14,610 bases of DNA from Gammaproteobacteria bacterium (GTDB lineage Bacteria; Pseudomonadota; Gammaproteobacteria; Burkholderiales; Thiobacillaceae): the NCBI GenBank assembly GCA_018820745.1, contig JAHJNP010000152.1:1-14610 (forward strand). Direction: 5' to 3'. Of the stretch, positions 1 to 13,512 are shown one piece after another; position 1 is the first letter of the stretch, and each line of letters begins with the position of its first letter. Under the pieces are notes generated by a model that was not told where the DNA came from, made no database searches, and saw only the letters and a program-made list of their open reading frames with translations. The position numbers were made by a program, and so were the translations under genes.

Positions 1-418
1 GCATCATGCGGCCGGATTCGTGTTGCGCCATCGAGGTGCCGAGCAGGGTGCCGGTTTCGTTGCGATATTCGTAATCGCCGGTCAGGAAGTCGAGCGCCGC
101 GTCTTCGGCGATCCACTCGGCATGCAGCTTGATGCGGTCGGGGGCATACCAGTCGTCGGCGTCGAGAAACGCCAGCCAGTCGCCGCTGGCAGCCGCCGCG
201 CCGGCGTTGCGGGCGACCGAGACGCCGCTGTTTTTTTGCCGGATCAGGCGCACGCCGTCGAAGCCGGCCGCGATTTCTGCGGTGGCATCGGCCGAGCCGT
301 CGTCGACCACGATGATTTCGTGCGCCGGCCAGCTTTGCGCGCGCACCGATTCGACTGCGCGCGCCAGTGTGGCAGCGGCGTTGAAGGCAGGGATGACGAC
401 CGAGAAGCGCGGGTTCAT
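1..418 (-). CDS. Family 2 glycosyltransferase (3' end beyond window)
   Basis: This is the N-terminal 139 residues of a GT-A fold family 2 glycosyltransferase that probably adds a sugar from a nucleotide-sugar donor to the growing glycan at the cytoplasmic face of the membrane. The sequence begins MNPRFSVVIPAFNAAATL, the usual first beta strand. It continues with IIVVDDGSADAT (nucleotide-binding acid), then NSGVSVARNAG, and then FLDADDWY, the metal-binding DxD region. It is open at the window edge, so the acceptor half is not visible. The ATG at 418 is preceded by GGGAGG six bases upstream and overlaps the TGA of the deacetylase-like gene by 4 bp (ATGA), so the two are almost certainly co-transcribed and translationally coupled. 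The family is certain; the sugar transferred cannot be read from the sequence. Confidence 0.92.
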   Translation of the reverse strand, partial: MNPRFSVVIPAFNAAATLARAVESVRAQSWPAHEIIVVDDGSADATAEIAAGFDGVRLIRQKNSGVSVARNAGAAAASGDWLAFLDADDWYAPDRIKLHAEWIAEDAALDFLTGDYEYRNETGTLLGTSMAQHESGRMM

Positions 419-1608
419 GCGCGGCCTCCCAGCAACGCCAGCGGCAGGGCCAAGCCGCTTAATTGCGACAGGCGGCGAAAACGCGGGATTTCGTCGAGGC
501 GCGCGCGCCAAGCGGCAAGCCGGGGCGTGAGCCGGGTTTCGATCCAGGCCGGGTCGCGCTGCCGGATCGCGCGCGCGAGATCGACCGGAGCGGCAAAGCG
601 CAGGTCGGGGCAGCGTGCGAGGGCTTCGCGCAGGCCGGTTTCGAGGGCGGCCAGGCTGGCGTCCGGCGCCTGCAGGAAATTGAAGCGGTGGGTCTCGACC
701 AGGCAGGCGCGTCCCTGCCGGGTGCGCGCCTGCAGGCCGTCGACCAGACGCTGCGGCACATGCCCCAGCGCCGGCTCGAAATACACGTCGCGCACCAGCC
801 AGGTTTGACCGGCGAGTGAACGCTCACCCGTCAGCATGGTGGCATCCACGCAGCCCGGTTGGCCGGCGCCATTGCGGCAGGTGGCGCGGCGGCCCGGGGT
901 GATGATGGCCTCGACGCCGGCCTGCGCCCAGGCGGCTTCGACGGCGTCGTTCCAGACGAAGGTGGTGGCGACGGCCACCTGCGGCGCGTTGCCGAACAGG
1001 GCCTGGTAGTCGGCGGCCTCGGTGGCGATGGCTTGCTGGATCGCGTCGGGCGTCAGCGCGTGCGACGGCAGGCAGGACGCATCGACCCAGCGGCTTTGCA
1101 GGGGCGCGGGCAGGTCTTCGGTGGACGCAGGGTCGGGGGCGGTGAGCCAGTCGCGCACGACGGGGTTGTCCTGTGCTGCCGCCAGCAGCGCGGGCGGCCA
1201 GTAATGGCACTGTCCGTGCAGCTGCGGGACGAAGACACCGGCCTGGATGCCGGCCTGGATGGCAGCGCGCACGGCGTCGAAGCGGGGATCGGCCAGGGGC
1301 AGCGCGTGGTATTCGGTGCAGTGGGTGGCGGCAATGCGGGGGCCGTCGGGGACTTCCAGGATGACGCCCAGGGTCATGACTGCGGGCCGGCCGCTGCGGT
1401 CGCGGATGCCTTTCAGGGTGCCGGTCAGGCGCGTCAGTGCGTCGGCCTGCTGCAAGGGGCCGGCGCCCCAGTCGTCGCTTTCGATGATGAGGACGGGGTG
1501 GCGCAGGACGGGTTCGCGCCAGCGGGCGGCGAGTGGGGTTGCGAAGGCGAGCAGAACGGCTGCCCATAGCAGGAGGATGGCGGCGAGGGCGAGGGCTGGC
1601 ATCGTCAC
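415..1608 (-). CDS. Membrane-anchored polysaccharide-deacetylase-like protein
   Basis: A 397-residue protein with one hydrophobic N-terminal segment (about residues 3-28), which should anchor it in the inner membrane with the rest periplasmic. The body looks like a divergent NodB/polysaccharide-deacetylase barrel. IIESDDWG at 41-48 supplies the paired acids of the first motif, LHGQCHYWPP at 130-139 supplies candidate metal-binding histidines (H131, H135), and ETHRFNF at 305-311 supplies a late catalytic-type histidine. A second short hydrophobic stretch lies at the extreme C terminus. If the assignment is right it would remove N- or O-acetyl groups from the glycan. The motifs differ from textbook NodB (TFDD, HSxxH), so an inactive or altered-specificity member is possible. 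The start is taken as GTG at 1608 because AAGGAGG lies 7 bases upstream; the ATG at 1602 is 13 bases away. It overlaps the downstream glycosyltransferase by 4 bp. Confidence 0.8.
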   Translation of the reverse strand: MTMPALALAAILLLWAAVLLAFATPLAARWREPVLRHPVLIIESDDWGAGPLQQADALTRLTGTLKGIRDRSGRPAVMTLGVILEVPDGPRIAATHCTEYHALPLADPRFDAVRAAIQAGIQAGVFVPQLHGQCHYWPPALLAAAQDNPVVRDWLTAPDPASTEDLPAPLQSRWVDASCLPSHALTPDAIQQAIATEAADYQALFGNAPQVAVATTFVWNDAVEAAWAQAGVEAIITPGRRATCRNGAGQPGCVDATMLTGERSLAGQTWLVRDVYFEPALGHVPQRLVDGLQARTRQGRACLVETHRFNFLQAPDASLAALETGLREALARCPDLRFAAPVDLARAIRQRDPAWIETRLTPRLAAWRARLDEIPRFRRLSQLSGLALPLALLGGRA

Positions 1609-1767: not shown

Positions 1768-2685
1768 TCAATACCCCATCCTTGCCGCCACATCAGCCAC
1801 CTGCGGCAGCACGCGCTCGATCTTGTCCCGATTGCGGCCGTCCTTCCATTTGTCCAGACGGATTTCTGAGAAGGCGTTGTAGGGGATGTCGAGCACTTCG
1901 GCGCAGTGCGCCTGCAGGCGGGCGTCGAATGCCAGGCCACAGCCTTCGAACACCTGGCGGAAGGTGGCGACCGGGTCGCGCAGAAAATCCTCGTAGAACA
2001 CATCGACCCATTGCCCGGCGGGCACGCTGGCCTTCGCGTCGAGGATGGCCTGGTTGATGGCGGCGTACTGAAACGCGGCGACATCTTCGACCGGCGCATT
2101 CACGAACTCGCGCCAGCCGTCGGCGAGGAAGAAGCACCACTGGGTCAGGGTGCCGTTTTCCACCGCCACCGTCGCCGGCAGGTCGTTCGACCAGGTGGCA
2201 AATTCGTCAGGTTTGCGCCAGCCCTCGATCAGCGAATTGAGGTTGTCGCCGGGGCTGCGCTTGATGAAGACGAACACGGCATCGGGAAACAGCGCCTGCA
2301 GATAGGGTACGCACAGGCCGTTCTGGTTGTTCTTGTCGACCCAGCGATGCTGCCCGGTCCAGCTGTAGAAATAACGGCTGACGGTGTCGCGATCCGCCGG
2401 GCTGGCGTCGCCGGCATCCAGCGCATGGGTGTCCCAGTGCTTGTCGGCCGGCGGATGCAGGTCGGTCCAGTAATCGTGGGTTTCGCGCTGCAGGCTGCCG
2501 ATCTCGCGCGATTCGGACAGGGTCTTGTAGACCAGCGTGGTGCCGGCACGCGAGCAGCCGACCACGATGATCGGGCGCTGCGCGGGTTGCCTCGCTAGCG
2601 CCCAGCGCAAACTGCGCACGCCACGTTGGGCGCGCCGAGCATGGTAGGCAAGTGTTTTGCTGACTTTAATCAGGAATTCATTCAA
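1768..2685 (-). CDS. Sulfotransferase family protein (first of two)
   Basis: A 305-residue PAPS-dependent sulfotransferase-like protein, likely cytoplasmic or membrane-peripheral. GCSRAGTTLVYKTL at 43-56 is the 5'-phosphosulfate-binding loop, the P-loop-like motif with the usual small-residue/Thr end. FIKRSPGDNLNSL at 140-152 matches the 3'-phosphate-binding motif (basic residue R143 followed by the Ser/Asn patch). Length is typical for bacterial carbohydrate sulfotransferases. It would transfer sulfate from PAPS to a sugar hydroxyl; the acceptor is unknown. The open frame begins at a TTG at 2685 with no clear ribosome binding site, and the only nearby ATG (about 2705) is in another frame and stops after seven codons. 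The N terminus is therefore uncertain: a GTG at codon 23 would also leave the PAPS loop intact. It is divergent from the asparagine-synthetase-like gene across a 243-base gap. Confidence 0.85.
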   Translation of the reverse strand: MNEFLIKVSKTLAYHARRAQRGVRSLRWALARQPAQRPIIVVGCSRAGTTLVYKTLSESREIGSLQRETHDYWTDLHPPADKHWDTHALDAGDASPADRDTVSRYFYSWTGQHRWVDKNNQNGLCVPYLQALFPDAVFVFIKRSPGDNLNSLIEGWRKPDEFATWSNDLPATVAVENGTLTQWCFFLADGWREFVNAPVEDVAAFQYAAINQAILDAKASVPAGQWVDVFYEDFLRDPVATFRQVFEGCGLAFDARLQAHCAEVLDIPYNAFSEIRLDKWKDGRNRDKIERVLPQVADVAARMGY

Positions 2686-2928: not shown

Positions 2929-4755
2929 ATGGATGGCATTTTTGGCTGGCTGGGCGACCACGGCGCGCATCAGGATTTGATCAAGCACATGGGACAGGCG
3001 GCCTGTCTGTCACCGGAAGGCCTGCTACACGAGCACAGCAGCCAGATGCTGGGGGTGGCGGGCTGCTCGCGCTTCGGCAAGGCCGGGATTCACGTTGAGA
3101 ACGGGCTGGCAGCGGCGCTGTATGGCCGACCGCGCTTTCTCGACGCGGATCTGGCCTTTATCGCCCGCGACCAGAATCCGGCCATGGCGGTGGCGCACGG
3201 CTGGCTGCGCTTCGGCGAAACACTGCCCACGCTGATGCAGGGAAATTTCGCCTTCGCCGTGCTCGAACCGCTGAAGAAAAAAGCCTTTCTGGCGCTCGAC
3301 CGCGTCGGTGCCGAGCGCCTGTGTTACGCCAAACATGGCGGCCAACTGATGTTCGGCAGCAGCGTGCAAAGCGTAGCCGCCCACCCCGCCGTCGGCCGCG
3401 TCATCGACCCCCAGGCGATCTACGACTATCTCTATTTCCACGCAATCCCCGCGCCGCGCAGCCTCTATCAGGGCGTGCACAAGCTGCTGCCCGGGCAAGC
3501 CCTCACCCTGAAAAACGGTCAGGTTAGTACCGCGTTTTACTGGCAGGCCGACTACAGCCCGGTCGATGCCGGATTCGACCCCCTCCGCCGCGATTTCCGC
3601 AACGTGCTGGATCAGGCGGTGCGCGATGCCGATGCGCCGGCCACCGCGGCGTTTCTGTCCGGCGGCACGGACAGCTCGACTATCGTCGGCGCCCTCACCG
3701 AGGCGCGTGGTGCGCCGGTCGACACCTTTTCCATCGGCTTCGACGCCGCCGGCTTTGACGAAATGGAATACGCGCGCTGCGCCGCCGAGCGCTACGGCAG
3801 CCGCAGCCACGAGTATTACCTGAAGCCCGCCGACATCGTGACCGCGATTCCCATCATCGCGCACGAATACGACGAGCCCTTCGGCAACGACTCGGCGGTG
3901 CCGACCTATTTCTGCGCCAAGGCTGCGCGCGAAGCGGGATTCGAGAACATGTTCGCCGGCGACGGCGGCGACGAAATATTCGGTGGCAATGCGCGCTACG
4001 CCAAGCAGCGCCTGTTCGAGGCCTATGCCCACCTGCCCGCCGCGCTGCGGCGCGGGCTGATCGAGCCGGTTGCAAACTTGCCGGGCCTGTCGGACCGGTT
4101 TCCGCTGTCCAAGCTCAAGAGTTATGTGCGTCAGGCCAAGGTCGGCCTGCCGCTGCGGCTGGAAAGCTACAACTTCCTGCACCGCACCCCGCTCGACCAG
4201 ATTTTTGCTGCGGATTTCATTCGTGCCGTCGACCCCTCCTCGACGGACGCTGCCCTCAGCGAAGTTTACGACCGCACCAGCTCCGACCATTACATCAACC
4301 GCCTGATGCACCTGGACCTGAAATTCACCCTGGCCGACAACGACCTGCGCAAGGTCGGCACGATGACAGAAGCGGCGGGGATCGAGGTGCACTACCCCCT
4401 GCTCGACGACCGCCTGGTGGCGTTTGCCAATCATCTGCCGGTGGATTACAAGGTGCGCGGGCAAAAGCTGCGCTGGTTCTTCAAGGAGGCCCTGGACGAC
4501 CTGCTGCCGGAAAAGATCATCAACAAGAGCAAGCACGGCTTTGGCCTGCCGTTCGGCGTGTGGAGCACGCAATACGCCCCGCTCGGCGACATCGTCGGCG
4601 ACAGCCTGTCGGACTTCAAAAAGCGCGGCTTGATCCAGCCGGCGTATCTGGACCACATGCTGGCCATGCAGCGCGGCCAGCATGCCAGCTATTACGGCGT
4701 GATGATCTGGGTGGTGATGATGCTGGAGCAGTGGTTGAGAGCGAACGAGCCCTGA
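2929..4755 (+). CDS. Asparagine-synthetase-like amide synthetase with degenerate glutaminase domain
   Basis: A 608-residue protein with the two-domain layout of glutamine-dependent asparagine synthetase. The C-terminal synthetase half looks fully active: pyrophosphate loop FLSGGTDSS at 242-250, DTFSIGFD at 265-272, DEPFGNDSAVPTY at 315-327 and FAGDGGDEIFGGN at 342-354. It should adenylate a carboxylate and form an amide. The N-terminal half starts MDGIFGWLG, so the catalytic Cys2 of the class II glutaminase (normally MCGI) is Asp. The hRGPD and NGEIYN signatures expected near residues 25-35 and 60-80 are also not present, although later structural motifs (GNFAFAVLE at 105-113) survive. It probably uses free ammonia or another amine, as beta-lactam synthetase and lasso-peptide cyclases do in the same superfamily. 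It is the only plus-strand gene, divergent from a sulfotransferase and convergent with gtrB. A tailoring role on a uronic or amino acid in the glycan is inference; ordinary asparagine synthesis is the alternative. Confidence 0.88.
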   Translation: MDGIFGWLGDHGAHQDLIKHMGQAACLSPEGLLHEHSSQMLGVAGCSRFGKAGIHVENGLAAALYGRPRFLDADLAFIARDQNPAMAVAHGWLRFGETLPTLMQGNFAFAVLEPLKKKAFLALDRVGAERLCYAKHGGQLMFGSSVQSVAAHPAVGRVIDPQAIYDYLYFHAIPAPRSLYQGVHKLLPGQALTLKNGQVSTAFYWQADYSPVDAGFDPLRRDFRNVLDQAVRDADAPATAAFLSGGTDSSTIVGALTEARGAPVDTFSIGFDAAGFDEMEYARCAAERYGSRSHEYYLKPADIVTAIPIIAHEYDEPFGNDSAVPTYFCAKAAREAGFENMFAGDGGDEIFGGNARYAKQRLFEAYAHLPAALRRGLIEPVANLPGLSDRFPLSKLKSYVRQAKVGLPLRLESYNFLHRTPLDQIFAADFIRAVDPSSTDAALSEVYDRTSSDHYINRLMHLDLKFTLADNDLRKVGTMTEAAGIEVHYPLLDDRLVAFANHLPVDYKVRGQKLRWFFKEALDDLLPEKIINKSKHGFGLPFGVWSTQYAPLGDIVGDSLSDFKKRGLIQPAYLDHMLAMQRGQHASYYGVMIWVVMMLEQWLRANEP

Positions 4756-4806: not shown

Positions 4807-5739
4807 TCACGCACGGTCTTCTATGAAAAAGTGGGGGCGTCGCTTGGTTTCCATATAGGTTTTGGCGAGGTACTCGCCGATGATTCCGATGCAAAGCAAC
4901 TGTATTCCTCCGAGCAGATATATCGGCACAACGGTCGACGTCCAACCCGGTACCGCCTGATCGGAGAACAGGCGTATGAACAGTGCCCATAGTGTGATGC
5001 CAAAGCTGACAAACGAAATCAGGAAGCCGAGCGCAGTGATCATGCGCAGTGGCACCGTGGAGAATGAGGTGATGCCCTGCCAGGCCAGGGCCAGCATTTT
5101 CCCGAGCGGATATTTCGACTCGCCAGCAAAGCGTTCTGCACGATCGTAGTAAATGATGGACGAAGGGAAGCCTAGCTGCGGAATGATGCCGCGCAGGAAC
5201 AGATTGACCTCATTGAATTCTCTCAAGGCCTCGATGGCGCGCCGGCTCATCAGGCGATAGTCTGCATGGTTAAAAACCACTTCGACGCCGAATCGTTCCA
5301 GCAGGCGATAATACCCCTCGGCGGTAAACCGCTTGAAAAATGTATCGGTGTCGCGGCTTTTCCTTACGCCAAAGACGATATCGCTGCCTTGGCGATGCGC
5401 CAGGATCATTTTTTTAATCGCGTCGAGGTCATCCTGCAGGTCGGCGTCTACGCTGATGGCCACATCGCCTTTGGTATCCAACAAACCGGCCAATAAGGCA
5501 TTTTGATGGCCCTGGTTGCGGGATAGCTTGATTCCCTGGACTGCCTGGGAGTTCGCTGATGCGTCCTGAATGATCTGCCAGGTGCGGTCACGACTTCCAT
5601 CGTCAACAAAAATGACATGGCTGCCCGCGTCCACCAGATTGTTCTCGACAAGATGTTCCAAAAGCCTCGTCAACCGGCTAATGGTTTCAGGCAGGACTGC
5701 CTCTTCGTTATAACAGGGGACGACTAAGCTAAGCATCAT
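4807..5739 (-). CDS. gtrB: GtrB-type polyprenyl-phosphate glycosyltransferase
   Basis: A 310-residue family 2 glycosyltransferase of the GtrB / DPM1 type, which loads a sugar (glucose in the studied cases) from a nucleotide donor onto undecaprenyl phosphate at the cytoplasmic face. SLVVPCYNEE (4-13), FVDDGSRDRT (44-53), NQGHQNALLAG (75-85) and SVDADLQDD (96-104, the catalytic acid cluster) make up the GT-A domain. The family-typical YDRAERFAGESKYPLGKM spans 198-215. Two transmembrane helices follow (about 231-257 and 268-291), then the characteristic IGEYLAKTYMETKRRP tail. The length matches the family. Its ATG overlaps the gtrA stop (ATGA), so both are made together and presumably act as donor-loading enzyme and flippase. 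GC and codon use are lower than in flanking genes. Family call is firm; glucose as the sugar is only by analogy. Confidence 0.93.
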   Translation of the reverse strand: MMLSLVVPCYNEEAVLPETISRLTRLLEHLVENNLVDAGSHVIFVDDGSRDRTWQIIQDASANSQAVQGIKLSRNQGHQNALLAGLLDTKGDVAISVDADLQDDLDAIKKMILAHRQGSDIVFGVRKSRDTDTFFKRFTAEGYYRLLERFGVEVVFNHADYRLMSRRAIEALREFNEVNLFLRGIIPQLGFPSSIIYYDRAERFAGESKYPLGKMLALAWQGITSFSTVPLRMITALGFLISFVSFGITLWALFIRLFSDQAVPGWTSTVVPIYLLGGIQLLCIGIIGEYLAKTYMETKRRPHFFIEDRA

Positions 5740-6140
5740 TTTGTGGTCTCCGGATCAGATTTGGCTTCCGCGAACGTCCAGGTGCGATTCGCAAGAAAAT
5801 TCCAGACAAGGGTGACGGCGGTCGCAATTATCTGACCGAGCATGTAATGCAAACTGAGCACGGAAACCATAAACCCGAGAACTGCCGCGTTCAAGAGCAG
5901 CCCTACCGATGCGATAGCATAAAACTTCGGCAAGGCATGCAGATGGGCAGCCTCGGATCGGAAAGTGTAGACACGGTTGAGCTGATAATTCAGCAGTGCA
6001 CTCAGCAGGTATCCGGCGGTGCTTGCCATGACGGGGTGGACATCAAGAAATGTCACCAGCAACACCAGAATAAGGTATTGCAGCGCGGTGCATACGCCGC
6101 CAATGCCTGCAAAGCGGATGAATTGCCCGAGGATGCTCAT
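5736..6140 (-). CDS. gtrA: GtrA-family flippase-like membrane protein
   Basis: A 134-residue protein with four predicted transmembrane helices (about 10-32, 36-54, 70-95, 100-118), the size and topology of GtrA proteins, which are thought to flip undecaprenyl-phosphate-linked sugar to the periplasm. Family signatures are present: FIRFAGIGGVCTALQY near the N terminus, NYQLNRVYTFRS at 51-62 and NFLANRTWTF at 114-123. The frame is open back to a start at 6200, but ATG 6140 is chosen because it begins the conserved FIRFAGIGG region and overlaps the upstream stop by the same 4-bp ATGA seen throughout the locus. It sits between the GT39-like gene and gtrB, with 4-bp overlaps on both sides. Confidence 0.9.
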   Translation of the reverse strand: MSILGQFIRFAGIGGVCTALQYLILVLLVTFLDVHPVMASTAGYLLSALLNYQLNRVYTFRSEAAHLHALPKFYAIASVGLLLNAAVLGFMVSVLSLHYMLGQIIATAVTLVWNFLANRTWTFAEAKSDPETTK

Positions 6141-7594
6141 TTCGCTCTCTGAGAGTTTTGCGTGGCGATTGCACAAGCCACCCAGATGCACAGCACCCAT
6201 ACCATGGGTATGTGGTATTTGCCATTTGATTCAAATACGCTGTGTAGGACGAAGAGATAGAGCCAACACCAGGCAATAATCCTGTGGGCTGCGGCATGGC
6301 GGCGTGATGACCAGACCATGGCGGCAATCAACAACCACACGGCAAGCCACCATGTATTGGCAGCAAGCTTGGCCAACAAATATGTATTGGGGTTATCCGT
6401 CCCCCCGCCACGCTTGAGGGTGGTATAGATGCCAGTCGAATCGTCGCCCATAAATCGTATTTCTTTTTCTACGACCAATTTGAAAAAGTCAACCGGGTTC
6501 TGCTTGATCCATGCAACAGCGTGTTGCTTGGCTGCGCGATCCTTTTCGATTTCATCATAAGCAGAAAAACTAATCTCGCCCCTGGGGCGATAGCCGCCAT
6601 CGGCCAGGGGGTTGTTGGCTCGGTAAAGGTTGTAACCACCATTGGTGCTGACAAGAACGAACTGTCCAAATTGTTGGTAATTGCGTAGGGTCCATGGCGC
6701 AATAACTGCTGCTGCACATACGACCAGCAAGATGGCCCTGTGGACCGTGCGCCAGCCATGGAGCATGGGGGTCAGGACGGCAAATGCAATCAACAGGAAT
6801 TGCAGCGAGGGTTGCACAAGTATTCCAAACCCCAACACCATACCTGCAAGCGCCATTGGCAGGATGTGCGGCCTCATGACGCCCATGCAGATCCAGGGAA
6901 GGATTGCCAGAATCAGCGCTTCCTTCTCGGGTGTTCCGGTCAGCGCGATGAGGTTTGGCCAGATCGAGAAAAGCAGGGCGGCAAGCCTGCCAGCCTGGTC
7001 GCCAGATAGCATCTGGGCGAGTTTGTAACATCCGACAACGCCCACCAGATAAAGGGAAAACTGGCTGAGAATGACTGCCAACTTGGAGCCGAATGCCCAC
7101 AACCAGGGGACAAGAAAGAAAGGGTACCCAGGCGGCCAATAAGCGCGCGTGCCGTCTGTTTCGTAGTGTCCCTCATGCAGCAGTTGTTCTGCCAAACCCA
7201 GGTAGGTTGCGCCATCCGAGCTTGGGGTTGCAGGAAATGCCAGTACCCACGCCAGCCGGAGTGCCAGTCCTGCAGCAATGATGACGAGCAGCGAGGGCGG
7301 TTGCCATTGCGAAATGAGCTTGAGCCCAATCCCGTTGAAAGGCGGACGTATGGCGAGTGCAAGAAGCAGGGCTCCGGCGGTCAATCCGGCAAGCGCAACC
7401 AGGTATTGCGTGTTTCCTCCGTCAATACCCAGCCCGCGTGCGAGAAGTAGTGGGGTGGATGCCCATGCGAGGCCGGCGAGCGCAAGCATGACCCAGTCAA
7501 GCCACCTGCCTGCCAGCAAGCGATTGGATGACCAGGCAGGACTCTCATGACGGCCAGGCTTGTTCGAGGATTGCATCAGCTTTGTTGATTGCAT
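6137..7594 (-). CDS. ArnT/GT39-like integral-membrane glycosyltransferase (GtrC-like third gene)
   Basis: A 485-residue multi-pass membrane protein with about ten or more hydrophobic segments, resembling GT-C fold glycosyltransferases (ArnT, protein mannosyltransferase). These use polyprenyl-phosphate sugars on the periplasmic side. SSDGATYLGLAEQLL at 125-139 places the expected catalytic aspartate (D127) in the first periplasmic loop. AYWPPGYPFFLVPWLW at 151-166 and PWTLRNY at 300-306 are usual companions, and the C-terminal loop carries NNPLADGGY (327-335) and FESNGKYHIPM (454-464). Directly followed by gtrA and gtrB, it fits the type-specific transferase of a gtr module that decorates a surface glycan. 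Start ATG 7594 has AGGGA six bases upstream; a second in-frame ATG is at 7576. The gene is lower in GC than the operon upstream. The transferred sugar and acceptor cannot be read. Confidence 0.85.
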   Translation of the reverse strand: MQSTKLMQSSNKPGRHESPAWSSNRLLAGRWLDWVMLALAGLAWASTPLLLARGLGIDGGNTQYLVALAGLTAGALLLALAIRPPFNGIGLKLISQWQPPSLLVIIAAGLALRLAWVLAFPATPSSDGATYLGLAEQLLHEGHYETDGTRAYWPPGYPFFLVPWLWAFGSKLAVILSQFSLYLVGVVGCYKLAQMLSGDQAGRLAALLFSIWPNLIALTGTPEKEALILAILPWICMGVMRPHILPMALAGMVLGFGILVQPSLQFLLIAFAVLTPMLHGWRTVHRAILLVVCAAAVIAPWTLRNYQQFGQFVLVSTNGGYNLYRANNPLADGGYRPRGEISFSAYDEIEKDRAAKQHAVAWIKQNPVDFFKLVVEKEIRFMGDDSTGIYTTLKRGGGTDNPNTYLLAKLAANTWWLAVWLLIAAMVWSSRRHAAAHRIIAWCWLYLFVLHSVFESNGKYHIPMVWVLCIWVACAIATQNSQRAK

Positions 7595-7924
7595 GTTATT
7601 TCCCTGCGCCAGGCGTGTTCGATAATGATGACATCCAGGCCATCGCAGCGGCGCGGCAAGATGGCTTCGATGAGCTTATGTACGAAAAAGCCTGCCGAAT
7701 TAGTGGGCGGCGCCGCATCCTGCAGATGGATGCCGCAAGTAAACTTAAAGGTCAGTGCTGCTGTGGCGAGTCGCGCCCGAGGCGATGCCGCGAAGGGTGC
7801 GACGGTGCGAATATCGCAGCGAGGACGACGGCACGTAGTAGTTGACGACTGGCGTCTTGCAAGCCACTGCCAGCCCTTTGGCGGGCACCCTCGCTTGCCT
7901 ATATACACCGTGCCACAGCTTCAT
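7576..7924 (-). pseudogene. Possible decayed gene between ligase and gtr module
   Basis: This stretch of some 330 bases has no intact gene. On the minus strand an ATG at 7924 overlaps the ligase stop by the same ATGA arrangement used at the other junctions, and opens a 59-codon frame (starting MKLWHGVYRQ) that ends at TAA 7745-7747. A neighbouring frame is open across that stop to 7576 and its last third looks coding (HKLIEAILPRRCDGLDVIII). The pattern suits an old gene broken by a frameshift near 7750 and shortened, or two unrelated chance frames. I do not recognise the product. GT39-like translation starts afresh inside its end with its own ribosome binding site, as expected if upstream coupling was lost. 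No strong hairpin or promoter is obvious. Confidence 0.35.
7601..7605 (-). promoter_or_regulatory. Ribosome binding site opening the gtr-like module
   Basis: AGGGA lies six bases before the ATG at 7594. It is worth noting because this gene, unlike its neighbours, does not begin inside an intact upstream gene. It supports 7594 over the second in-frame ATG at 7576 and suggests that the module was designed to be translated independently. Confidence 0.5.
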
Positions 7925-9222
7925 GACCGAACCGGCTGGACGGATGCGGCAACACGCCTTTTTATCACCGGGTTCATGACAGGCGCAGTTTTGTCCAGCA
8001 CACCCGAGAACTTTGCCGCCAGTAGCAGAATAATCATCAGATGATAAGTCAGGTCGAAATAGGCCAGCCCCAGGAAAACACCTCCCACCCCGTACCCGAC
8101 CAGACTGACCTGGATCATCGCGGCCAGATCGGCCGCCCATTTTCGCTCGGGATCATTCTTGCACTCGCGGATGACCTGATTGGCTCGCAACCAGGCAAAC
8201 ACGGCCAGCAGGATGAACATGCCGAAGCCGATGAAGCCGTGCTCGCCCATCACCTCGAAGTAGATGCTGTGCACGTCGTGCACCCTGAAGGGCTCGGGAG
8301 CGTACTGGCGGAAGGTCGGCGCCCTGAACATTTCGAACCCGCCGCCGGTGACCCGGTCCTTCGCCACATTGAATGCGGTATGCCAGGCATTGATGCGCCC
8401 CAAGGCCGAAGTGTCTTCCTGGTAGGTCTTGATCGTATTCATGCGGTCATACCATTCCTGCGGCATCACCGATGCCATGATCGCGACCGCGATCACCATG
8501 TAGATCGTCATGACGAACTTGTGGCGGCTCTTGAACCACAGGAACAAGCCCATGGCGGCCAACGCCAGCAATCCGCCACGTGATTGGCTGCCGATGGCAG
8601 CGACGCCGGATAACACCATGGCTGACGCGAGTCCCCAGCGTACCCATTGCTGCGTAGCCTGCAGATGCAAATAGCGGATCAGCGGAATGAGCATAGCCAG
8701 AACCAACGCCATTTCATTGTTGCCGCCAAAAAAGGTTCCTGCTGGCCCCTGTACCCTGAACTGGCCGCCGTGCATGATAGTGAAAATGCCGCCCTTGACC
8801 CCGTAGTAACCCAATGACAGCGCAATGACCCAGATCATCCAGTGCAGATGCTGGCGTTCCTTGATGATCATGGCAGTGAGAAACACCATGAGTTGGATTC
8901 TCCAGACCTTGTTCCATTGCTCCCATGCGAGGTCTGAATAAAAAGCAAAGAATGTGGTGGTCAGCATCCAACCGACAAATATCAGCAGCAATGTCGTCTC
9001 GCGCGTCCAGACCATTTCTTTTTTCTCTTTCGAGAAAATGAAGGCCGTGATGGTGACGACGGCACAGATGAAAGCGAACGGCATGTCATAGGCGAAGCCC
9101 CAAGCCTGCCGATGCGGGTTCATGTAGCCGAGCCAGCACCACAGCAGGATGCCGATCCAGGGGCGCTTGAATATGAAAGGCAGCGCGCCGAACACAATTG
9201 CGGTGACCAGTATGTCTCTCAT
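7921..9222 (-). CDS. Exosortase A-associated O-glycosylation ligase / O-antigen ligase-polymerase family
   Basis: A 433-residue inner-membrane protein with about ten hydrophobic segments. The start MRDILVTAIVFGALPFIFKRPW followed by GYMNPHRQAWGFAYDMPFA (32-50) is the hallmark of the 'probable O-glycosylation ligase, exosortase A-associated' family (DUF5935 plus Wzy_C). The core has SQSRGGLLAL at 212-221 and the periplasmic loop TGGGFEMFR (292-300) and VHSIYFEVMGEHGFIGF (317-333), typical of WaaL/Wzy/PglL-type enzymes that move a polyprenyl-linked glycan to an acceptor. Whether it polymerises exopolysaccharide or glycosylates protein is unresolved for the family. ATG 9222 overlaps the formyltransferase stop by 4 bp and has GGAG about 9 bases upstream. 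This gene is the main clue tying the locus to the PEP-CTERM/exosortase A system. Confidence 0.9.
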   Translation of the reverse strand: MRDILVTAIVFGALPFIFKRPWIGILLWCWLGYMNPHRQAWGFAYDMPFAFICAVVTITAFIFSKEKKEMVWTRETTLLLIFVGWMLTTTFFAFYSDLAWEQWNKVWRIQLMVFLTAMIIKERQHLHWMIWVIALSLGYYGVKGGIFTIMHGGQFRVQGPAGTFFGGNNEMALVLAMLIPLIRYLHLQATQQWVRWGLASAMVLSGVAAIGSQSRGGLLALAAMGLFLWFKSRHKFVMTIYMVIAVAIMASVMPQEWYDRMNTIKTYQEDTSALGRINAWHTAFNVAKDRVTGGGFEMFRAPTFRQYAPEPFRVHDVHSIYFEVMGEHGFIGFGMFILLAVFAWLRANQVIRECKNDPERKWAADLAAMIQVSLVGYGVGGVFLGLAYFDLTYHLMIILLLAAKFSGVLDKTAPVMNPVIKRRVAASVQPVRS

Positions 9223-10049
9223 GCGTTTCGCTCCGGTACTGATTCACTCGTAAACCAGCGGACTCTTCCAGGCAAAGCCATCCCCACCAGCATGCCGGAG
9301 GCCAGTCGCGCAGCCAGCGCTCGCTCATGGCGCAGGCCACGGTCCCTGACCTGATACAGCCGACCCTTGCCAGGCTGCGCCAAACCGAGCTGTTCGCCTT
9401 GGGCAAGCCGGGCAACGGCTTCAGCGTAGACCACGGCGCCATCCTGTACCGCGCGCCAGAACAGCTCCAACTCACCGTCGCCCTCGCGCACTTCCGGACT
9501 GATGTGGGCGATGAGGCGGCCGGTGTCGATGCCGGCATCGATGTAGTGCAGGGTGCAGCCGATTTTTTCCGGCTCGCCGTTGTATAGCGCCCAGAAGGTG
9601 CAGTCGGCGCCGCGGTATTCGGGCGAAAGTCCGCCGTGCAGGTTGATGATGCCAAGGCGACCTTCGTTCAGCAGGTCACCGCGAATCAGCGAGGTGCCAA
9701 ACACGCAGATGAGATCAGGCTTGAGTTCGCGCGCCAGTCTCACCACGTCGGGATGGTTGATATGCGGGACTTCTCTCACCAATTCGGGGCGATCGAGCCG
9801 CGCCGCGCCCTGCGGGAAAAAGAACTTTGCCTCCGGGTTGCCGGTATAGCGGCGGCGGTCGCGCAGCCAGCGCCAGGCTTTGCGGAACAGATTGTCGGGG
9901 CGCAGTTTTTTCAGGGTCTTTTTCAGCTTCCACTCGCCGCCGGTTTCCTGAACGATGGCCACGGCTTCGCCCGCCTGGCACAGGGCATTGGCGACATGCA
10001 GGTGGCGGGCGCTGCGCCCGCACAGGATCATGATCCGCAGCCGACTCAT
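9219..10049 (-). CDS. Formyltransferase-fold enzyme (sugar N-formyltransferase-like)
   Basis: A 276-residue protein with the formyl-transferase N-terminal fold. The active-site signature is clear: IINLHGGLSPEYRGAD at 134-149 supplies the Asn (N136) and His (H138), and HYIDAGIDTGRLI at 168-180 supplies the catalytic Asp (D171). The Leu-Ser-Pro after the His matches Fmt and ArnA-type enzymes, which use N10-formyltetrahydrofolate. In a glycan locus the likely substrate is an amino sugar nucleotide, giving an N-formyl sugar. The first 80 residues are unusual for the family, with a very basic stretch (KLKKTLKKLR at 41-50 and following arginines), so membrane or nucleic-acid-like charge contacts are possible. 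The protein lacks the long OB-type C-terminal domain of Met-tRNA formyltransferase, arguing against the housekeeping role. It overlaps both neighbours by 4 bp. Confidence 0.87.
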   Translation of the reverse strand: MSRLRIMILCGRSARHLHVANALCQAGEAVAIVQETGGEWKLKKTLKKLRPDNLFRKAWRWLRDRRRYTGNPEAKFFFPQGAARLDRPELVREVPHINHPDVVRLARELKPDLICVFGTSLIRGDLLNEGRLGIINLHGGLSPEYRGADCTFWALYNGEPEKIGCTLHYIDAGIDTGRLIAHISPEVREGDGELELFWRAVQDGAVVYAEAVARLAQGEQLGLAQPGKGRLYQVRDRGLRHERALAARLASGMLVGMALPGRVRWFTSESVPERNA

Positions 10050-11260
10050 CGCGCCAGCCCCTTGGCCGCAGCCGGGATTGGGGGCACGGCAACATTGGCC
10101 ATGTCCATGATCAATGCATCGGAAAAGAACTTGGCTGCCCAGTTGGGGAATTCGAAGCGTGAATACGCGCCCCAGATCGGCGCCGACCCGGGAATGGCAC
10201 CGCGCACGATGTCGTCGCCCTCTTCCAGCCGCTGGGTGCGCTTGACGTAAGCGATCGCGCGCCCGGCAGCGTCGCGGTAACTTTTATCCCCGGTGATTTG
10301 TGCCAGGCGAAGCCAGCACAGGGCCATTTGCGCGACGCCGGTGACGCATGCGTAGCTTGCCGTGGGCGACCAGCCGTCGCCGTAGGTTCCCGCAAGCCAG
10401 CCATCGCTGCGCTGTTTTTCCATCAGGCCGCGGGCGGCGATTTCTGCCGCGTTGAGATAACGCTCCTCGCCCAGCAGCACCGCCACTTCGATGAAGCCGC
10501 GAATGGCGTAGGCGATGGTGTGGGTGAAGGGATGCCGTCCCGGCACGAAGGCATTGGTGGCGAACCAGCCGCTCGGCGTCTGCTGGGTCAAGGCCCAGTC
10601 AAGGTTGCGCCGCGCAGCCGCTAGAAAACTGGCCTCGTTCGCCACTACGCCGATGGCCGCCAGCGCCCAGATGGCGCGCGTGTTGTAGACGTGCGGTACG
10701 CCGTTGTGCTCGTACTTGCGGTAACAGCCGTCCTCGTCCTGCTGCGCCACCAGCCAGTGGCCGGCGCGCACGCCGGCTTCCAGACAATCCTGACGCTTGA
10801 GCGATGTGTAGCCGGCGACCAGGCCATGCATGATCTGGCCCTGGTTGAATATAACCGGGTGGCTTCCGGCCTCGCCGAAGTGGCCGGGAAACGCGCCGTC
10901 GGCGGTTTGCAGCGAGAGCTCCCAGTCGACCATTTTCTGGCTGCGCTCGATCAGTTCCGGGCGGTCGAGGTGTTCCGCGGCGGCGATGAAGGTCTCGATG
11001 ATGTAACCGGTGGTTTCGGGATAGCTGGGCAGCCAGCCATCCTCGAAGCTCCAGCCCGCAGCGACTCCGCCCGCATCGGATTGGCTGTTGCGGATGTCCT
11101 GCGCGCGGCATAGCCAGTCGATGGCGCCACGCAAATGGGTGCGATGGTCGTGCTCGCGCTGGCGGGCAGTTCCGGCAATGTCCTGCAGCACCAGACGCAG
11201 ATGGCGTCCGTGCCAGGGTTTGTAGCGCAGGGGAAGCTGTAGGAGCGATGACGGTTTCAT
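10046..11260 (-). CDS. Alpha/alpha-toroid protein resembling polysaccharide protein VpsJ
   Basis: A 404-residue, probably cytoplasmic protein with no signal peptide or membrane segment. Its clearest feature is an internal repeat of the type W-x-L-x2-Q-x3-DG-(W/A/C)-F: at 49-65 (first, weak), 113-126 (DWELSLQTADGAFPG), 168-180 (HWLVAQQDEDGCY), 221-233 (DWALTQQTPSGWF) and 278-290 (GLMEKQRSDGWLAG). Spacing is about 55 residues. Paired helices with such turns form an alpha/alpha toroid as in terpene cyclases, prenyltransferases and six-hairpin glycosidases. In exopolysaccharide clusters this fold appears as VpsJ-like proteins of unclear function. The conserved WSFEDGWLPSYPETTGY (70-86) and HPFTHTIAYAIRGF (243-256) may line the central cavity. 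A glycan lyase/hydrolase or an isoprenoid-lipid binding role are both possible. It starts 24 bases after the PaaK-like gene ends and overlaps the formyltransferase by 4 bp. Confidence 0.75.
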   Translation of the reverse strand: MKPSSLLQLPLRYKPWHGRHLRLVLQDIAGTARQREHDHRTHLRGAIDWLCRAQDIRNSQSDAGGVAAGWSFEDGWLPSYPETTGYIIETFIAAAEHLDRPELIERSQKMVDWELSLQTADGAFPGHFGEAGSHPVIFNQGQIMHGLVAGYTSLKRQDCLEAGVRAGHWLVAQQDEDGCYRKYEHNGVPHVYNTRAIWALAAIGVVANEASFLAAARRNLDWALTQQTPSGWFATNAFVPGRHPFTHTIAYAIRGFIEVAVLLGEERYLNAAEIAARGLMEKQRSDGWLAGTYGDGWSPTASYACVTGVAQMALCWLRLAQITGDKSYRDAAGRAIAYVKRTQRLEEGDDIVRGAIPGSAPIWGAYSRFEFPNWAAKFFSDALIMDMANVAVPPIPAAAKGLAR

Positions 11261-11284
11261 AGTCTGGTTCGAATCAATTTCAGT

Positions 11285-12670
11285 TTAGTCAGCAATCAGC
11301 TTCAGGGCCCCGGCCAACGGCACGTGGCTCACCACATAGCGATGCTTGCCGGAGGCTTCGGGCGGAATGTCATCCAGCATACGCAGGTCCACCTGCAGCG
11401 CATTGCCGAGGCGGGCGCGCAGTCCGGCTATTACGGCTTCACGGGCGGCCTCGTTCCAGTCTACATCCGGCACGATCTGCACCTCCATGCGGTCGAGCGC
11501 ATGCTGGATGCACTTGAACTGGGCGATGCCCGGCACGGCGCGCAGCACATAAATCACCGCCAGCGCATGCATGACGCGGCCATCAGCGGCGACGACAAAA
11601 TCGGTCTGCCGCCCGGTTACTTCGGCAATCACGTGCAGGCCCTGCCCGCCTGCGGCCGGCTCGCTGGACAGCCGCAGCACGTCACCGGTTCGATAACGGA
11701 TGAACGGCTGGGCTGCTGAAGTCAGGCCGGTGACCACGGCTTCGCCGGCTTCTCCGGGCGCCACCGGCTGTCCGGCCTCGTCCAGCACTTCGATGATGTG
11801 GCTTTCGCTCATCAGCAACATCTGCCCCCCCGGCGCCTCGTGTGCGGTGAAGCCGATATCGCGGCTACCGAACTCGTTCGCCACCGGCGCGCCGAATACG
11901 CGGGCGATGAGTTCACGCTGGTGCGGATAAAGCGGTTCGCCGGTGGTGCACACCACGCGCAACTGCGGCAAACGCAGCGTGCGCCGCCGTACCTCGGCGT
12001 GCGCTGCCAGCAGGGCGACGCTCGATGCATAGCCATACAGGCACCTAGGCTGCCAGGCCTGCAGCGCATCGAGATAGTCATCCATGTGCTCGGGCGACAT
12101 GGCGAAGGCGTTCAGCACCATCTGGTTGACCAGCCGGTCGCGCAGGGTCTTGATGCGGTCGGTCTTGTCGAGTTCCACCGGCGCGCCCCACAGATAGGCC
12201 TCGCGCTCGCCCGGCTGCACGCCCCACCACCGCCGTGCGCGCATGCGCCCTGCCGCATCGGAAGCCTGGCGCTCACGGCCGAAATAGAAGATCAACGGCT
12301 CGCCGCTGGAACCGCCGGTGGTGTACTTGAAGACGCCGCCCGGTGCTTCACGCCAGGCCAGCTTCTCGACGTTGTCGCGGGCATCGCGCTTGTTCATCGT
12401 CGGCAGGCGTGACAAGTCATCCAGCGTCACAGCCCCTGCCCTGGTGGCTGCGTCCAGGCCAGCTACGCGCAGGTGATCGGCGTGCCAAGGGCTGTGTGCC
12501 AGCGCACTGGCCAGCAACTGATTGAGCCGCTGGGTCTGATAGGCCTCGATGCCCTCCCGCGACAGCCATTGCGTGCGCTCAAGCTCGGCCAGCATCGTAA
12601 AGGTGGGCCTGTGCATCGCAGCTTCCTGCGCGCGGTAGACGCTACGGGCGAACCAGGCTGGGACGCTCAT
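11285..12670 (-). CDS. PaaK/CapK-like adenylate-forming enzyme
   Basis: A 461-residue member of the phenylacetate-CoA ligase (PaaK) branch of the adenylate-forming superfamily, the group that includes CapK-type proteins of capsule loci. The phosphate-binding loop is YTTGGSSGEPLIFYF (116-130). CTTGEPL (241-247), EFGSRDIG (266-273), the ATP-ribose aspartate in YRTGD (326-330) and the hinge-region TGRQTDFV (352-359) follow in order. ASGKHRYVVSHV near the C terminus holds a candidate catalytic lysine. The enzyme should activate a carboxylic acid as an acyl-adenylate and possibly pass it to CoA; the acid and its destination on the glycan are unknown. ATG 12670 has AGGAG five bases upstream and overlaps the sulfotransferase stop by 4 bp. 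Family call is firm; involvement in acylating the polysaccharide is inferred from neighbours only. Confidence 0.88.
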   Translation of the reverse strand: MSVPAWFARSVYRAQEAAMHRPTFTMLAELERTQWLSREGIEAYQTQRLNQLLASALAHSPWHADHLRVAGLDAATRAGAVTLDDLSRLPTMNKRDARDNVEKLAWREAPGGVFKYTTGGSSGEPLIFYFGRERQASDAAGRMRARRWWGVQPGEREAYLWGAPVELDKTDRIKTLRDRLVNQMVLNAFAMSPEHMDDYLDALQAWQPRCLYGYASSVALLAAHAEVRRRTLRLPQLRVVCTTGEPLYPHQRELIARVFGAPVANEFGSRDIGFTAHEAPGGQMLLMSESHIIEVLDEAGQPVAPGEAGEAVVTGLTSAAQPFIRYRTGDVLRLSSEPAAGGQGLHVIAEVTGRQTDFVVAADGRVMHALAVIYVLRAVPGIAQFKCIQHALDRMEVQIVPDVDWNEAAREAVIAGLRARLGNALQVDLRMLDDIPPEASGKHRYVVSHVPLAGALKLIAD

Positions 12671-13512
12671 GCACGCTCCTGATGTGACTGCGCCCGGAAA
12701 CGCGCCAACAGTTCATCGCACAAAGCCACCACGGCAGGTGCGATGTCCGGCGGGCTGCGGTGCTTGACCGAGCGCGCGTGGATACGCCCGGCAATCCTCT
12801 GATTGAAACCCCGCAAGCCGAGATAATCGTAGACTGCCGCCACTTCACGCATGGGATGCTGGACCAGACCCTCGTAAAACACCACGCGCACACGCGGATC
12901 GGCGGCCAGCTGCTGCTCGAAGAACAGCGCATTGCGATAGAACCACATGATCGCCGCACCCTCAGCTTCGCTGGCGTCCGGATGGTACAACGCAGCGAGC
13001 AATTCTCGGGTGGCGGGCGACATGCCGCGCCCACGCCAGTCGCTCGAATCCCCGTGCGCCAGCCGCTTCCATTGCGGCACGAAGTTGCCGAAGGACTTGA
13101 TCGCCGAATTGACGCTGTCGCGCCAGTCGCGCACGACCCACAGCGTTTTTGCCGGAGTGAAGGCATCCATCAAGGGCTTGATGCGATCGAGCTCGCACAG
13201 CGCCTTGATCACGAACACCGGTGCCGGGCATTGCTGCGCAAGCTGCCGGATCACGGCCAGATCGCGCATTTCGTAGCGTTCGAACGCGCGCGGGTCGGTT
13301 TCGTGGAACACCTGGGTATCCGCACTGGCATCCAGCACATCCATCAAGAGGTTTGTTCCTGAACGCTGCATGCCTGCAACGAACACATGCTGGGCGACAG
13401 GTCGCGGCAGGATGCGCTGGCGCAAGACCTTGCCGTGGCGCCAGATTGCATGGCGAATGCGCATTGGCAGGCCGCGTGCATCGTGTCCGGTGGCGGGTTT
13501 GGCTTGGCTCAT
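12667..13512 (-). CDS. Sulfotransferase family protein (second of two)
   Basis: A 281-residue PAPS-dependent sulfotransferase-like protein. HVFVAGMQRSGTNLLMDVL at 42-60 is a textbook 5'-phosphosulfate loop with the RSGTNLL signature. TLWVVRDWRDSVNSAIKSFG at 123-142 is the 3'-phosphate-binding motif (R128 and the following Ser/Asn). VVFYEGLVQHPMREV near residue 200 matches the region just after the substrate pocket. Apart from the shared motifs it shows little resemblance to the sulfotransferase at 1768-2685, so the two are not a recent duplication and may act on different positions. An alternative start at Met17 would skip a charged, non-conserved leader, but ATG 13512 is preferred because it overlaps the glycosyltransferase stop by 4 bp. 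Likely part of the same operon and acting on the glycan, though small-molecule or lipid acceptors cannot be excluded. Confidence 0.9.
   Translation of the reverse strand: MSQAKPATGHDARGLPMRIRHAIWRHGKVLRQRILPRPVAQHVFVAGMQRSGTNLLMDVLDASADTQVFHETDPRAFERYEMRDLAVIRQLAQQCPAPVFVIKALCELDRIKPLMDAFTPAKTLWVVRDWRDSVNSAIKSFGNFVPQWKRLAHGDSSDWRGRGMSPATRELLAALYHPDASEAEGAAIMWFYRNALFFEQQLAADPRVRVVFYEGLVQHPMREVAAVYDYLGLRGFNQRIAGRIHARSVKHRSPPDIAPAVVALCDELLARFRAQSHQERA

Follow-up and report, generated by a model that had tools for sequence, protein, structure and literature searches.

How might an enzyme of the asparagine synthetase (AsnB) fold make an amide when the half that would draw nitrogen from glutamine has lost its site? 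The question is raised by a window of 14,610 bases, the complete contig JAHJNP010000152.1 (C116) of a draft metagenome-assembled genome (75 % complete, 431 contigs) from the Thiobacillaceae, whose open reading frame (ORF) at 2929-4755 on the plus strand encodes an AsnL-type amide synthetase of 608 residues, for which we use the working name AsnL and whose sequence begins MDGIFGWLGD. The initial annotation had described, for positions 2929-3400, which are residues 1-157 of this single ORF, a dead glutaminase half joined, within a glycan locus, to a synthetase half that looks alive, and both the motifs and the relatives support that description well. We find that AsnL belongs to an unnamed class of AsnB-fold proteins, most of which come from genomes that carry exosortase A (XrtA/PEP-CTERM) exopolysaccharide loci. 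Judging from sequence, we put at about even the chance that it is an amide synthetase of exosortase loci which makes no use of glutamine and whose nucleophile would likely be an amine on a surface-glycan intermediate.

In class II amidotransferases, also called Ntn (N-terminal nucleophile) amidotransferases, the N-terminal Cys is the nucleophile and works with Arg49, an Asn-Gly oxyanion pair and Asp98/100. The N-terminal domain of the window protein, with the Ntn/glutaminase fold (residues 1-205; 2929-3543, plus strand), lacks Cys2, HRGPD, NGEIYN and the DTE residues, the loss of both motifs having already been pointed out. Codon 2 (2932-2934, plus strand) reads Asp, as the initial annotation stated when it gave MDGI for MCGI. 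The AlphaFold model (predicted local distance difference test, pLDDT, 92.5) keeps the Ntn fold, and in the structure alignment its residue 2 pairs with residue 1 of AsnB (1ct9) and so sits where that enzyme has its N-terminal residue. Only the second half of the GATase_7 profile matches, at residues 94-149. A wrong start that hides a Cys was rejected, since there is no in-frame ATG, GTG or TTG upstream of 2929; M1 and G6 moreover align with the invariant M1 and G6 columns of canonical paralogues.

The loss of the glutaminase site is real and shared by all relatives read. Protein matches were taken as the best 120 per search, and none of the 285 proteins among the matches listed has Cys2, HRGPD or NGE[IL][YF]N, while exact SGGxDSS is absent in six of them and exact GDGGDE in one. 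The best 120 listed, the window's own protein included, begin with MDGI in 116 cases, with MNGI in two and with MDGF in one; the remaining one is over-extended and has an internal MDGIFGW. Likewise, Cys2, HRGPD and an NGEIYN-like motif occur in 0/95 AsnL family loci, all of which keep SGGxDS[ST] and GDGGDE, so that the Cys2 orthologues named at the outset as the contrary finding did not turn up in either set. Starts in these 95 rows were picked by our own rule (L046 and L114 have no Met start), and the rows contain two contigs twice (L037/L050 and L038/L051), the truncated L047 and the broken-frame L032. Named records account for 42 loci, none with Cys2: the 29 Thiobacillus-type copies read MDGI and the other 13 start with MTGVCGW, MAGICGW, MSGICGW, MKGICGW or MRGLMGW, except L046, which reads LLGLLGS and shows no clear Met start. 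As to Asp2 beside sulfotransferase genes, a point raised by the initial annotation, a sulfotransferase is the divergent neighbour in 23/29 of the Thiobacillus-type loci. Outside Thiobacillus, many members (among proteins P0121-P0285 and loci L034-L124) share a Cys5 in a start of the form M[STAK]G[ILM]CGW.

A joint alignment of 91 AsnL family rows with 30 canonical paralogues (L032, L047, L050, L051 and L114 removed and the window added, as also for the tree; tree and position analysis leave out most Thiobacillus rows) shows how the rest of the site has changed. Of the 91 family rows, 90 have a gap in the Arg49 column, 6 have Asp in the Asp100 column and 52 have Arg in the Glu77 column; in the Asn75 column Ala (15), Tyr (13) and Ser (12) are the commonest letters, and Gly76 is kept in 89.

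Concerning the synthetase half, the site was claimed to be intact, which both expected motifs bear out. The Asn_synthase domain (PF00733; residues 223-604, 3595-4740, plus strand) matches its profile with 258.8 bits against a cut-off of 21, and contains the PP-loop SGGTDSS (residues 244-250; 3658-3678, plus strand), GDGGDEIFGGN (residues 344-354; 3958-3990, plus strand), in which D345 is in line with Glu348 of AsnB, and Lys535 within KHGFGLPFG (4531-4533, plus strand), kept in 91/91 rows. In the joint alignment seven ATP-site/synthetase positions are each kept in 91/91 family rows. Purifying selection acts on both domains among Thiobacillus-type orthologues, with a ratio of nonsynonymous to synonymous rates (dN/dS) of 0.13-0.17. 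Of 20 class-specific positions, 19 fall in this half; the canonical consensus stretch LPGDILTKVDRASMA is LADNDLRKV in the AsnL family consensus. In a profile search no NCBIfam model reaches its cut-off for the window protein. The best match is TIGR03108, at 302.1 bits against 816.9 and from profile position 102, and TIGR01536 gives 240.5 bits against 267.1. The label 'asparagine synthase (glutamine-hydrolysing)', which many AsnL proteins carry in one source, looks wrong.

A natural control is offered by the loci themselves. Eighteen Thiobacillus-type loci reach a second AsnB-type gene, ca. 30 % identical and 5-9 kb from AsnL, that is readable from its start in 12 of them (the other six are cut or broken). 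All 12 show MCGITGIF, HRGPD and NGEIYN, and the cluster therefore retains one working-looking glutamine amidotransferase beside one protein without a glutaminase site. The paralogue of locus L006 scores 1130 bits with the TIGR03108 profile. Canonical copies were gathered from 37 loci, of which the 30 with an MCG start were used (five truncated copies and two with Cys second after a non-Met residue were excluded); HRGPD and an NGEIYN-like motif are each found in 29/30. TIGR03108 (eps_aminotran_1, WbpS-like) shares with AsnL the fold family, the synthetase motifs and often the same loci. It differs in that the copies read have Cys2, HRGPD and NGEIYN, none of which AsnL has, and the window protein stays far under its cut-off.

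Among 369 genomes sampled from the class, the window's own included, 54 carry AsnL with a score of at least 365 bits. Apart from the window's own, these 53 matches are 35-54 % identical to the window protein, and the next-best match falls to 254 bits; eight weaker copies were read, seven with an MCG start and one cut. The description of the ligase as locus-specific was therefore too narrow. Named members among the matches listed belong to Thiobacillus, Sulfuriferula, Sulfurimicrobium, Sulfuricella, Nitrosomonas, Thioalkalivibrio, Massilia, Noviherbaspirillum and a Rhodocyclaceae bacterium. In a sample of 398 genomes from the phylum, eight have a match at E 1e-90 or better, including the window's own and, again, G323; one of them lies outside the class (36 % identity, start MTGICGW). 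Three matches from this sample (L132-L134; 37-40 % identical) have shorter N-terminal parts with no recognisable M.G..G start, and they and the cut L130 are not counted in the 95 family loci.

The link to exosortase loci is seen both in the window, which encodes the XrtA-associated ligase TIGR03097, and across genomes: XrtA is over its cut-off in 73/369 genomes and in 49 of the 54 with AsnL, these associations and their P-values being uncorrected for kinship. Within the 78 genomes that encode XrtA or AsnL, TIGR03108 is present in 53/54 AsnL genomes (50 over cut-off and three as fragments at contig ends), and its best copy shares a contig with AsnL in 31/54 and lies within 20 kb in 24/54. The FemAB-like TIGR03019 is over cut-off in 51/54 AsnL genomes vs. 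16/24 XrtA genomes without AsnL.

From these data a mechanism can be proposed. The N-terminal Ntn domain would serve as a non-catalytic scaffold, and the C-terminal domain would adenylate a carboxylate with ATP, as we infer because the PP-loop, GDGGDE and Lys are intact; the adenylated carboxylate would then pass to a nitrogen nucleophile to give an amide. Class II amidotransferases draw no nitrogen from glutamine without a glutaminase, and the known AsnB-fold enzymes that have lost theirs react with an amine of the substrate. The nucleophile would thus be supplied as such, since glutamine should not be hydrolysed, and it would most likely be an amine carried by an intermediate of the surface glycan, whether sugar, amino acid or lipid. 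Use of an amine other than ammonia is plausible, and its joining to a carboxylate of the glycan locus is favoured because nearly the whole glutaminase site is gone, because the known glutaminase-less enzymes use amines and because synthetase-domain residues have changed; this change also suggests a substrate other than that of the co-occurring TIGR03108 (WbpS-like) protein, which would make an ordinary glutamine-dependent primary amide. What sequence and model show is that all relatives read lack the glutaminase residues, that the fold and the synthetase motifs are kept, that Thiobacillus-type orthologues are under purifying selection and that AsnL co-occurs with TIGR03108 and XrtA; adenylation, a glycan substrate and an amine nucleophile are inferred.

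Several points weigh against this proposal. D345, Asp in 91/91 family rows, is an acid like the Glu348 of AsnB with which it aligns, as in ammonia-using enzymes, at a position where beta-lactam and carbapenam synthetases presumably carry their catalytic Tyr. No amine-making gene is obligatorily paired with the class: the exosortase-associated pyridoxal phosphate decarboxylase TIGR03099, tried as the source of the amine, is not a general answer, being over cut-off in 23/54 AsnL genomes (4/24 XrtA genomes without AsnL; in two more, pieces only) and not over cut-off in the window's genome. XrtA does not reach its cut-off in five of the AsnL genomes. The TIGR03108 contrast (over cut-off in 9/24 XrtA genomes without AsnL) hangs on the curated cut-off, because at E 1e-80, which also catches other AsnB-type genes, it becomes 53/54 with AsnL vs. 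21/24 without. Cys2 in the 30 canonical rows is there by selection, as the rows were picked on their MCG start, and these rows are less divergent, so that the contrast in conservation (mean column identity 73 % in canonical rows vs. 50 % in the AsnL family) is exaggerated. Finally, the AsnL and TIGR03108 classes are separated by one branch with support 100 in an unrooted tree that has several long branches and no beta-lactam or lasso relatives as outgroup.

Because of the acidic D345, ammonia stays a serious rival to the amine, and we consider it possible, if clearly less probable, that AsnL is ammonia-dependent and forms a primary amide, e.g. a uronamide, the ammonia being either free or channelled in trans by TIGR03108, whose glutaminase is kept. 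The near-constant company of TIGR03108, often at short distance, agrees with such a division of labour, as does the fact that a uronamide in Porphyromonas depends on WbpS, an eps_aminotran_1 (TIGR03108) member, according to the sections of PMC7468200 available. A family-wide loss of the glutaminase is, on the other hand, hard to explain if the product is a primary amide, and the synthetase domain, with its 19 class-specific changes, points to a different substrate.

A more doubtful alternative is that AsnL has lost amide synthesis as well, or performs another AMP-ligation, and supports TIGR03108 in a scaffolding or regulatory role. It would fit the co-occurrence of the two and the replacement of the canonical stretch by LADNDLRKV; the seven synthetase positions kept in every row and the purifying selection on the synthetase domain speak against it. 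Quite improbable is that glutaminase activity survives, with the Cys5 of many relatives (MSGICGW) exposed by trimming as the N-terminal nucleophile. A start of the type [MV]xGxCG[WYF] is indeed found in 23/66 non-MDGIFGW loci and in at least 123/165 of the listed proteins P0121-P0285, but the first 12 residues of the window protein and of 35/66 of these loci contain no Cys, most of the other glutaminase residues are lost, and AsnB residue 1 pairs with residue 2, not 5, so Cys5 is disfavoured. As for a point mutation, sequencing error or decaying pseudogene, which so fragmentary a draft assembly might invite, it is refuted by the MDGI shared among the best listed proteins, by a 96 % identical copy in Thiobacillus denitrificans RG and by the low dN/dS.

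Turning to the neighbourhood, the other gene-like ORFs followed in the window lie on the minus strand. AsnL is separated by a divergent intergenic region (2686-2928) from a sulfotransferase-family gene (Sulfotransfer_3; 1768-2685, minus strand), beyond which lies a gene for a 397-residue protein (415-1608, minus strand) that no family matches over cut-off (weak GH57, E 0.008) and that most Thiobacillus-type loci keep next to the sulfotransferase. On the other side follow a family 2 glycosyltransferase (4807-5739, minus strand), the exosortase A system-associated O-glycosylation ligase TIGR03097 (7921-9222, minus strand; 591.5 bits against a cut-off of 188.1), an alpha/alpha-toroid protein of 404 residues (10046-11260, minus strand; GH127-like and squalene-cyclase-like matches) and a PaaK/CapK-like protein of the AMP-forming ligase family (11285-12670, minus strand; every match below cut-off). 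The toroid protein is found in some Thiobacillus-type loci and unmatched in others. Further glycosyltransferases, a GtrA-type membrane protein and, in all, two sulfotransferase-family genes are also present. The stretch 4807-13512, from AsnL to the O-ligase and PaaK genes, differs in length and content among close Thiobacillus relatives, as expected for a glycan-diversity locus. A search for a sigma-54 promoter pattern in the window gave no signal (26 matches vs. 24.4 expected).

XrtA itself is over cut-off on another contig of the same genome, C173, of only 3,690 bases, together with a TIGR03108 gene that runs off the contig edge after its N-terminal part; the exosortase locus was hence probably split by assembly. 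Clustering of 59 neighbourhoods, with stretches of unequal length, shows no constant companion gene of AsnL besides the AsnB type, the largest other clusters being the TIGR03097-type ligase (26), one glycosyltransferase cluster (26) and a PaaK-like cluster (18). In several genomes (e.g. L089, L090, L115, L122-L124; clusters 19, 26, 27 and 28) AsnL stands beside TIGR03098, TIGR03099 or TIGR03101, its association with TIGR03099 being partial only.

Among characterized enzymes, AsnB (1ct9; TIGR01536) shares with AsnL both domains, the PP-loop and an acid at Glu348, and is unlike it in that AsnL has no glutaminase site and falls under the TIGR01536 cut-off. Beta-lactam synthetase and the carbapenam synthetase CarA (1jgt/1mbz and 1q15/1q19) have the AsnB fold in common with AsnL in the structure alignment, at only 16-20 % identity, and likewise a dead Ntn domain; their context is antibiotic synthesis, that of AsnL a glycan. 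The models for lasso-peptide cyclases (NF033535) and albusnodin/ikarugamycin-type macrolactam cyclases (NF033561) match all 36 AsnL members scanned at E 1e-10 or better, and the window protein remains far from their cut-offs (126.3 bits against 525 and 67 against 300, respectively). The hydroxyamidotransferase TsnB9 (7ylz), 19 % identical, belongs to a different pathway.

In PEP-CTERM bacteria, the presence of several AsnB-type genes in one exopolysaccharide cluster has already been noted, and An et al. 2016 (Water Res) is reportedly the work behind the requirement of asnB and asnH for floc formation. The excerpt of PMC7662799 available states this requirement second-hand, citing a Zoogloea study, and calls the Zoogloea-type pair glutamine-dependent, unlike AsnL without its glutaminase site. 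Like the AsnL loci, the clusters of Zoogloea and Aquincola have two asparagine synthetase genes (PMC9012009, as far as its accessible text goes), and that of Rubrivivax, psc1, has three, of which two were hit by transposons in a suppressor screen (PMC3684757, in the portion at hand) and two are listed as glutamine-hydrolysing. In the main text of the original exosortase paper, the terms 'asparagine' and 'amidotransferase' are both absent (PMC1569441), and the literature searched, with most subscription journals outside its reach, holds no recognisable description that separates a glutaminase-dead class. The class described here is a conserved, unnamed and glutaminase-dead one of AsnB type, linked to exosortase loci.

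As regards the biology of these bacteria, the available part of PMC7468200 suggests a link between VimA/FemAB-like proteins, TIGR03108 and the exosortase acceptor, and describes the compound that receives exosortase cargo as unidentified. A speculative extension, to which we attach a low probability, is that AsnL forms a surface-glycan amide and thereby makes or finishes the acceptor for the PEP-CTERM proteins that exosortase A attaches. Working next to the FemAB-like TIGR03019 and the uronamide-forming TIGR03108, it would couple an amino acid or other amine to a uronic-acid carboxylate, or link an amino sugar with the carboxylate of an amino acid, much as type IX secretion cargo has a 2-N-seryl/glycyl linking sugar. 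Being conserved and accompanied in the sample almost always by TIGR03108 and mostly by XrtA and TIGR03019, AsnL offers itself as a specific candidate for tailoring the exosortase-acceptor glycan, and may represent a further loss of the glutaminase in the AsnB superfamily, outside the antibiotic and lasso-peptide pathways.
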